A stretch of DNA of 41,848 nt, taken from contig JAQBYC010000032.1 in assembly GCA_027623205.1 (NCBI GenBank), positions 1-41,848 on the forward strand, read 5' to 3'. How positions within the stretch are numbered: position 1 is the stretch's first letter; each line of letters opens with the position of its first letter. Below the pieces are notes generated by a model. It was not told the DNA's origin and ran no database searches. It worked only from the letters and a program-made list of their open reading frames with translations. Made by a program: the position numbers and the translations under genes. Below, piece by piece: positions 11,284 through 13,872 of the stretch. The DNA comes from Pseudomonadota bacterium (GTDB lineage: Bacteria > Pseudomonadota > Alphaproteobacteria > GCA-2731375).

Positions 11284-11949
11284 ATGGCTGTTGAAACCAA
11301 CCTGTTTCTTGGACCATTGTCAATATACCGCAACGCCGTCGGGCGTACCGTTATTGCCCTGGCCTTTTTGGCGGCCGTGGCAATGTCGGCGCCGTCGGAA
11401 GCCCATGGACCAGCGCCCGACGTCCCACCGCCGCCGCCGAATATGGCCGCCCTTTTCGGCGGTCCGTTCTCGCTGATCGACCATGATGGTTCGCCACGGA
11501 CGGATCGGGATTATTCCGGCAGGTTCCTACTGATCAGTTTCGGCTACACTCACTGCCCTGATATCTGCCCCCTGGATCTATCGACCATGGCCGCGGCGCT
11601 GGAACTGCTGGGACCGACCGGTGAACCGGTACAGCCCATTTTCATCACCATCGATCCGGCACGCGACAAACCGGCGGTGCTGAAGGAATATGTCCTCAAT
11701 TTCCACCCGCGCCTGATCGGTTTGAGCGGATCCGAGAGGCAAATCAGCCGCGTGGCGAAAGCCTACCGCGTGCACCGCAGCAAGATCATCGTTGAAGACG
11801 CCCCACCGGGGAATTACCTGGCCAACCACTCATCATTGACCTATTTGATGGGCCGGAATGGAGACTTCGTGACCATGTTTCCCCACGGCACGGCACCGCG
11901 ATTTATGGCCGACGCCATCCGCCGTCATATACTCAGGCTAACGCCTTGA
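11284..11949 (+). CDS. SCO1/SenC family copper chaperone / thiol-disulfide protein
   Basis: This 221-residue protein has an N-terminal hydrophobic anchor (VIALAFLAAVAM, residues 23-34) and a periplasmic thioredoxin fold. The copper-binding CxxxC is C91/C95 in THCPDICPLDL, and the third ligand His182 is in NHSSLTYLMG. SCO proteins deliver copper to, or reduce thiols of, the CuA site of cytochrome oxidase. The neighbours here are the two three-Cys secreted proteins rather than oxidase genes, suggesting a variant role. The ATG at 11284 was chosen because it leaves a normal anchor; a GTG lies just before it. Its 3' end overlaps the convergent peroxiredoxin-like gene by 17 bp. Confidence 0.92.
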   Translation: MAVETNLFLGPLSIYRNAVGRTVIALAFLAAVAMSAPSEAHGPAPDVPPPPPNMAALFGGPFSLIDHDGSPRTDRDYSGRFLLISFGYTHCPDICPLDLSTMAAALELLGPTGEPVQPIFITIDPARDKPAVLKEYVLNFHPRLIGLSGSERQISRVAKAYRVHRSKIIVEDAPPGNYLANHSSLTYLMGRNGDFVTMFPHGTAPRFMADAIRRHILRLTP

Positions 11950-12580
11950 GATCAGCAATGGTTTTGCCGGGTTCGGGCCGCTGCGTGTAATCCACTTCGA
12001 TATCGGCGGCTTTGATCAAACCGCCCTGATCAACCACCAACCGCGCCGGGATCGCTAAAGTCCAGCTGTCGTCGCCGTTATATTTGGGCAGATCTATGCC
12101 GAAGCCGTCATAGACCAGTTGCAGCGCCGGCGGCACCTGGAACCGCAGCCCCAGTTGCGCGGCATAGGCATTGCCGGCATCCATCACCAGATGGTAGTTC
12201 AGCGCGTGTTTCTTGATCATGGTTCGGCTGTGTTCGGCCAACTGCGGCGTTATGGCCACTAAAGTCGCGCCCATATCTTCCAGTTCGCCAAGAGCCTTCT
12301 GCAAAGCATACAGCTCTGCGTTACAATAGGGTCACCAGGTACCCCGGAAGAAGGTCAAAACCAGCGGTCCGCGCGCCAAAAGATCGCCTGACCGCACCGC
12401 GGTTCCCTCGACATTCGGCAACGCAAAATCTGGCAATTGGTCGCCCACCTTGACGACGCTGTCCAATATGCCCGATGCGCGCAAAGCGGTTGTCGCGGCC
12501 CCCATGATTGCCCGCTTCTCCTCCGGTATCCGGGTTGCGGCACCGGCGCGAATAGCGTCGAGTTGTTCAGCCAATGACAT
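11933..12580 (-). CDS. peroxiredoxin-like AhpC/TSA selenoprotein (WUPYC motif, in-frame UGA)
   Basis: Read through one TGA (complement of 12332-12334), this is a 215-residue thioredoxin-fold protein of the AhpC/TSA-like family. VGDQLPDFALPNVEG is at about 45-59, then FFRGTW-U83-PYC86-NAEL. The UGA falls exactly on the first Cys of the family's usual WCPYC motif, and the frame on both sides is the same and typical of the family, so selenocysteine is the best reading. A hairpin just downstream fits a bacterial SECIS. The start ATG at 12580 has AGGAGAG about 5 nt upstream and gives MSLAEQLDAI. It likely reduces peroxides or disulfides. It is the last gene after the thiolase and hydroxyacid dehydrogenase genes and overlaps SCO1 tail to tail. 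Treating the UGA as a stop would give an 82-residue fragment lacking both redox residues. Confidence 0.87.
12301..12319 (-). promoter_or_regulatory. candidate bacterial SECIS element
   Basis: On the mRNA, UGA is followed by 12 nt, then GCAGAGC, loop UGUAU, and GCUUUGC. The stem has 7 bp with one G-U pair. The apical loop starts 19 nt after the UGA and has G at its second position. This meets the published bacterial SECIS pattern (loop 16-37 nt from UGA, small loop with G in its first two bases). Confidence 0.7.
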
Positions 12581-12714
12581 ATATCTCTCCTGCGCAAACG
12601 TCGGCGGTCGCATGCGACCAGACCTTCCGACAATGTCCTTATCCATAGCAAGTTTCGCATTATGGGCGCGGCCAAGCACCTGGTCCAGGGATGTTGTACC
12701 GATGGTCCTTGATA

Positions 12715-13872
12715 TTATGCCAGGGTGCGAAGATACTGCGGCCCCAGATCGCCCGCCTTGGCGCAACCCAACAGCATCATGTCACGGCGGATCTCGCCCT
12801 GCAAAATTTCCATGGCCCGTTCCACCCCGGCCCGGCCGCCGGCGCCAAGGCCGTAGAGATAGGGCCGGCCCGCCATGCAGGCAGTGGCGCCAAGCGAGAG
12901 CGCCTTCAAGACATCCGTGCCCCGGCGCACGCCGCCGTCCAGGATCACCTGGGCCCGGCCGTCGACCGCAGCGACGATTTCAGGCAATACATCGATCGGG
13001 GCCGGCGCATGATCCAACTGCCGGCCACCGTGGTTGGAGACGATAATGGCGTCAAAGCCCATCTCGGCAGCGCGGCTGGCGTCCTCGGCCCGCAACACCC
13101 CTTTGATGGCTAACGGCCCGCCCCATTGTTCCTTCATCTGCGCCGCGTCCTCCCAGCTAACCGTCTTGTCCAATTGCTCTTCCGTATAGCGGGCGAGATC
13201 AGCGGTAGAGGTGTTCCCCTCGACCCGGTCGGCCAAATTCGCTAGGGTCGGAGTGGGGTTGCGGATGGCGTGATACAGCCAGGCCGGTTTGCGCAGCATG
13301 TCCAGGACCATCGGCAGGGTCGGTTTGAGCGGCATGGCCAGGCCGTTGCGCACATCGCGCTCCCGGTTACCGGTGATCGGCACATCGACGGTCAGGCACA
13401 GGGCGCTGAAACCGCTGTTCCTGCACCGCGCGATAAAATCCCGAACGATGGCCCGGTCCTTCCAGACATAGATTTGAAACCATTTTGGCCCGCCGGACAA
13501 ATTGCCCACGCCTTCTATGGAAGTGGAGGAAGCGGACGACAGCGTATAGGGGATATCATGCGCGCCAGCGGCGGCGGCCAGACTTTCTTCCCCCGTATGG
13601 TGGAATAATTCTGGCAACCCAGTAGGCGAAACGATCAGAGGCGCGGCGATCTTGCAGCCCATTACCTCCGTGCTGATATCGATCTCGGAGACATCCACGA
13701 AATTGTGCGGCACCAGTTGATAGCGTTCAAAACCGCTGCTGCTGCGCCGTAGCGTCACTTCGTCCTCGGCCCCGCCATCGATGAAATCGAATAACAGTTT
13801 CGGCACCTTGCGCGCGGCAAGGCTGCGCAGGTCGTCGATGTTATGGCATTGGGCGACCGTCCTGGCTGTCAT
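12715..13872 (-). CDS. FMN-dependent alpha-hydroxy-acid dehydrogenase (LldD-like)
   Basis: This 385-residue TIM-barrel flavoprotein oxidises an L-2-hydroxyacid such as lactate, passing electrons to oxygen or the quinone pool. FMN-binding and catalytic signatures are visible: FDFIDGGAEDE near residue 30, SPTGLPELFH near 82, the KGVLRAEDA lysine region, the catalytic His/Arg segment SNHGGRQLDHAPA, and the phosphate-binding DGGVRRGTD followed by GRPYLYGL. Its ATG lies 3 bp after the thiolase stop, so the two are co-transcribed, with the Sec-peroxiredoxin 134 bp further down. The exact substrate (lactate, mandelate, glycolate) is not decidable. Confidence 0.92.
   Translation of the reverse strand: MTARTVAQCHNIDDLRSLAARKVPKLLFDFIDGGAEDEVTLRRSSSGFERYQLVPHNFVDVSEIDISTEVMGCKIAAPLIVSPTGLPELFHHTGEESLAAAAGAHDIPYTLSSASSTSIEGVGNLSGGPKWFQIYVWKDRAIVRDFIARCRNSGFSALCLTVDVPITGNRERDVRNGLAMPLKPTLPMVLDMLRKPAWLYHAIRNPTPTLANLADRVEGNTSTADLARYTEEQLDKTVSWEDAAQMKEQWGGPLAIKGVLRAEDASRAAEMGFDAIIVSNHGGRQLDHAPAPIDVLPEIVAAVDGRAQVILDGGVRRGTDVLKALSLGATACMAGRPYLYGLGAGGRAGVERAMEILQGEIRRDMMLLGCAKAGDLGPQYLRTLA

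Follow-up and report, generated by a model that had tools for sequence, protein, structure and literature searches.

A predicted WUPYC selenoprotein of the peroxiredoxin-like UxxC type in an alphaproteobacterium, with a SECIS-like hairpin conserved among its UGA-containing homologues

Introduction

Peroxiredoxin-like (Prx-like) UXXC selenoproteins were reported in 2005 and 2008, the one from the Sargasso Sea as a COG0450 protein and the GOS 'Prx-like 1' as a pfam00578 protein with a UxxC motif (PMC1088965, PMC2398784), and a 'Prx-like thiol:disulfide oxidoreductase' has an entry in the table of a 2026 review (PMC13188914). The gene studied here lies in a window of 41,848 nucleotides, the whole stretch of DNA that was analysed, from an alphaproteobacterial genome. 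It resembles these proteins in its PF00578 domain, in having UxxC in place of the TxxU of Prx, and in the bacterial SECIS that follows the UGA (PMC1088965, PMC2398784, PMC13188914); the comparison is one of tabulated domain and motif under broad labels, so that membership of the WUPYC group may or may not apply to them. A selenoprotein of the cd02970 Peroxiredoxin-like family (UxxS, PMC13188914) also has selenocysteine (Sec, U) first in a four-residue motif, but by its description the second active residue is Ser, whereas it is an invariant Cys here. The Sec peroxiredoxin PrxU and Bcp (TxxU) share the fold and the Pfam family; in contrast to them, the window protein has no TxxU, and the host encodes a separate protein of their kind (the DTPGU protein of Table 1). 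Thiol-disulfide oxidoreductases of the ResA/TlpA type share the W-C-x-x-C motif at a helix start and a fold match (1su9, 4nmu), but they differ from the window protein, which has Sec for the first Cys, no visible signal peptide or membrane anchor, and a helical N-terminal extension of about 40 residues in its AlphaFold model. Finally, the model of SelL-related redox proteins (NF040769) matches all nine close homologues weakly, scoring 32 bits where 120 are required, and the window protein is not a member. It is well supported that, UxxC Prx-like selenoproteins being already known, this gene is one more of them; its subfamily scores below the cut-off of every NCBIfam model.

Results and discussion

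A single frame across an internal UGA

An earlier note on this DNA had claimed a frame of 216 codons with a single TGA between FFRGTW and PYCNAEL, and the translation agrees with it: the minus-strand frame reads FFRGTW-U-PYCNAEL, has no other interruption, and ends in a TGA of its own (Table 1). The note's expectation that a plain gene caller would split the gene was also borne out, the mechanical ORF caller giving two ORFs, one either side of the internal TGA. The PF00578 (AhpC/TSA) match spans residues 45-191 (83.4 bits against a cut-off of 26, E 1.6e-23), which means that the domain continues across the TGA. We regard it as very probable (about 0.96) that this UGA is decoded as Sec and that the residue belongs to the active centre of a redox enzyme. 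The best explanation of the product, held with equal confidence, is a cytoplasmic Prx-like selenoprotein of AhpC/TSA fold. Standard annotation cuts such a gene in two, and the active site is lost.

The same caller proposed a longer frame starting at a TTG (12766), which is not supported, since the homologues start at the same Met as the ATG at 12580. At its 3' end the gene shares 17 bases (11933-11949) with the 3' end of a convergent SCO1/SenC gene, and the upstream gene on the same strand encodes an FMN-dependent alpha-hydroxy acid dehydrogenase (PF01070).

Table 1. Features of the window gene and further TGA-interrupted genes of the host genome (window positions, or contig and positions)
Feature	Location	Strand	Basis or remark
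Predicted selenoprotein coding sequence	11933..12580	(-)	215 residues and TGA stop, internal TGA read as Sec; frame reading, PF00578 match, homologues
In-frame TGA, codon 83, predicted Sec of the W-U-P-Y-C motif	12332..12334	(-)	frame reading; same codon TGA in 49 distinct homologues
Predicted resolving Cys of the UxxC motif, Cys86	12323..12325	(-)	present without exception in the Sec and Cys homologues compared
SECIS-like hairpin, stem GCAGAGC / GCUUUGC, loop UGUAU	12301..12319	(-)	folding, conservation, published SECIS constraints
Shine-Dalgarno-like AGGAG, 6 nt 5' of the ATG	12587..12591	(-)	direct reading
Second WUPYC paralogue	C45:12439-12747		TGA-interrupted
WUGC protein	C63:7885-8214		TGA-interrupted
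Bcp-like DTPGU protein	C221:14730-15098		TGA-interrupted
Deiodinase-like SYTUPPF protein	C5:5187-5633		TGA-interrupted; PF00837, 66.9 bits
SelW-like Rdx protein	C223:15515-15709		TGA-interrupted
SelD	C63:21997-22926		TGA-interrupted

Homologues carry TGA or a Cys codon at the same position

A number of comparisons bear on how the internal codon is read. First, of the 15 genomes of the same family, counting that of the window, nine have a close homologue of the window gene, and all nine homologues have TGA at codon 83; a search at the level of the order gave the same 15 genomes. Within the class, the close homologues have TGA and most of the more distant ones Cys. Second, named genomes were scanned, which yielded further TGA forms in Alphaproteobacteria, Thermodesulfobacteriota, Myxococcota, Acidobacteriota, and Rokuibacteriota. 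Once duplicates were removed, the distinct set comprised 49 TGA and 56 Cys sequences, from genomes that include MAG assemblies. Third, the alignment of homologues that the earlier note had proposed as a check gives Cys or TGA, and never Trp, at exactly this column, and Cys86 is invariant in the whole set (105/105). Fourth, differences from an 83%-identical congener fall at third codon positions in 35 of 49 cases before the TGA and in 45 of 71 after it, and the persistence of this bias indicates in-frame translation of the part beyond the TGA.

One TGA in an otherwise normal frame could also arise from a sequencing or assembly error, or from a nonsense mutation that has made a pseudogene of a common WCPYC protein. 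Among the Cys-type homologues, one (L063) is interrupted by a plain TAG five codons 5' of its motif Cys, and is itself probably a pseudogene or an error. For the window gene such an origin is the least probable of all the explanations we weighed, because 49 distinct sequences, assembled independently and drawn from several phyla, share the same TGA, the frame is conserved 3' of it, and the constraint on the hairpin described below is confined to TGA genes.

With the Sec/Cys column masked, the tree shows two changes of label, and the TGA forms enclose a single clade of Cys forms made up of Bacteroidota and Planctomycetota; grouping all Sec forms in one clade is not rejected (AU p 0.489). These data are compatible with one origin of Sec followed by one loss as well as with two origins. 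Transfer of the gene between phyla is likely.

A hairpin conserved with the UGA

The earlier note had also described a 7-bp hairpin with a UGUAU loop placed as in bacterial SECIS elements, and this reading held. The bacterial SECIS model asks for a loop of 3-9 nt, a stem of 4-16 bp, a G in the first two loop places, a distance of 16-37 nt from the UGA, and an MFE of -7.5 kcal/mol or lower (PMC13188914). The window hairpin, GCAGAGC-UGUAU-GCUUUGC, lies within every one of these bounds: the 7-bp stem begins 12 nt past the UGA, the 5-nt loop begins after 19 nt and has G as its second base, and the predicted energy is -10.8 kcal/mol. None of 200 dinucleotide shuffles folds as well (z -3.1). However, a longer piece of 56 nt favours another, competing fold (z -0.27), and 134 of 2000 synonymous-codon shuffles of the gene fold equally well, so that taken alone the hairpin is mildly unusual at most and the case for it rests on the cross-genome set. 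A search of Rfam with positions 11500-13000 gave no match. To our knowledge, Rfam holds no model of the bacterial SECIS, and this result was to be expected.

Across the set, with positions numbered from the U of the UGA, all four pairs of the inner stem (19-31 to 22-28) are formed in 46 of the 49 TGA genes against 3 of the 56 Cys genes (Fisher p 3e-22, a value that treats sequences as independent and is inflated by their kinship). A synonymous null for the TGA genes, with codons drawn from the same gene, gives on average 3.0 and at most 9 such genes in 1000 draws, whereas the Cys genes match their own null (3 observed, 2.8 expected). Three codons are nearly fixed in the TGA genes compared with their use elsewhere in the same genes: GAG for Glu89 in 49/49 (44% elsewhere), CUG for Leu90 in 48/49 (40%), and GCU for Ala92 in 48/49 (9%). 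The second loop base is G in 48 of the 49. Pair 19-31 is G-C in 25 sequences and G-U in 22, and pair 18-32 is A-U in 24 and G-U in 20, so that pairing is retained in both; the outer two pairs are frequently lost. The comparison demonstrates what we read as selection at the RNA level, beyond coding need and specific to TGA-bearing genes. In one genome (G309:C11:4727-6281, L054) the Sec gene is duplicated in tandem, and both copies retain TGA and hairpin.

The host encodes the selenocysteine machinery

The prediction that the host has Sec machinery proved right, selA, selB, selC, and selD all being found in its genome (5.0 Mb, 97% complete). The tRNA-Sec, with anticodon TCA, is detected by Infernal (68.2 bits, over the cut-off) and by ARAGORN; selB scores 399.5 bits and adjoins selA; and selD scores 390.8 bits, with an in-frame TGA at its own active site. 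In other Alphaproteobacteria the tRNA-Sec is known to be nested in selB (PMC8124441), whereas the host selB locus (contig C213) contains no tRNA and selC lies on contig C209. A further match to the tRNA-Sec model (L002) was rejected as a tRNA-Ser (cga). Among the genomes tested, selB is present in 20 of 20 that bear the TGA form and in 2 of 15 that bear the Cys form (p 7e-8, again inflated by kinship). In one genome of the class that is more distant (G104, C73:133878-136659), about 280 bases separate selB from the Sec Prx-like gene, which is on the opposite strand.

The UGA might instead be decoded as another residue, such as Trp under a changed code or a suppressor, or might be a true stop that yields two short proteins, as the two ORFs of the mechanical caller would have it. 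We consider this very improbable, if a shade less so than error or pseudogene: homologues without TGA have Cys and never Trp, the window gene itself terminates in TGA, the genome holds complete Sec machinery, and the second ORF would be left without the first strands of the fold and the active site. For practical purposes, sequencing error, pseudogene, and a pair of split genes are all excluded. For Sec decoding, comparison across genomes demonstrates, at the level of sequence, that the frame is read through, that the TGA form goes with selB, and that the RNA hairpin is conserved.

A probable UxxC redox centre acting on peroxide or disulphide

By established selenoprotein biology, SelB with Sec-tRNA(Sec) would bind the loop of the hairpin, and UGA-83 would be decoded as Sec. 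From the motif, the selenolate of Sec83 would then attack a peroxide or a disulphide, Cys86 would form a selenenylsulphide (Se-S) with Sec83, and thioredoxin or glutathione would reduce this bond. The earlier note had placed the UGA at the nucleophilic Cys of AhpC/TSA proteins, which stands insofar as it aligns with the Cys of the homologues; the Prx signature PxxxTxxC, however, is absent, Gly80 occupying the Thr position three residues before Sec83 in every aligned member. The note's choice of peroxidase or disulphide oxidoreductase is supported as to a probable UxxC redox centre, the window protein having both PF00578 and UxxC as the Prx-like UxxC type does, and the substrate class stays between the two.

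A true Sec peroxiredoxin would differ from a UxxC disulphide oxidoreductase in substrate and not in its use of Sec. With the AlphaFold model (mean pLDDT 79.5, but below 50 right at residues 83-85), the fold search ranks Bcp/PrxQ-type peroxiredoxins (5epf, 3hjp, E 4.5e-11) above ResA, and a profile search of solved structures also places Bcp first. Pointing away from a peroxidase are Gly80, the CxxC spacing with a helix starting at the site as in ResA and thioredoxin, and the NCBIfam profile search, in which no model reached its cut-off and the sub-threshold relatives were ResA at the top, Bcp, and SelL-related proteins. A peroxidase is a serious possibility that falls a little short of being probable. 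Given the missing Thr of PxxxTxxC, a UxxC oxidoreductase like thioredoxin or TlpA has no less likelihood, and the physiological substrate may be either a peroxide or a disulphide.

Candidate selenoproteins of the host

The host has at least six further candidate Sec genes (Table 1), a tally that comes from family searches only and is incomplete. No TGA occurs within its matches to the molybdopterin oxidoreductase family (PF00384), and hence no Sec formate dehydrogenase was found; the Alphaproteobacteria of PMC8124441 differ in having one. The Sec trait of this host rests on predicted thiol redox proteins. We tentatively propose, as a combined account that is somewhat less likely than not, that 1) the WUPYC clade is old, largely unannotated, and spread over at least five phyla; 2) Sec arose in it once and was kept, the Cys form of Bacteroidota and Planctomycetota being a later loss; and 3) at least seven redox or selenium proteins, none of them a Sec formate dehydrogenase, depend on the Sec system of the alphaproteobacterial host, and it is antioxidant thiol chemistry, rather than formate, that maintains the trait. 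The large matched set of Sec and Cys homologues is useful to test the benefit of Sec in a UxxC centre and to train selenoprotein gene finders.

A second, separate Prx-like WUPYC subfamily (once WUAYC) has TGA in each of its members L031-L034, L038, L039, L043, L044, and L050. It occurs also in members of the genus that lack the window's gene, and in the host copy a possible GCCGGC-AGUUG-GUCGGC hairpin comes next.
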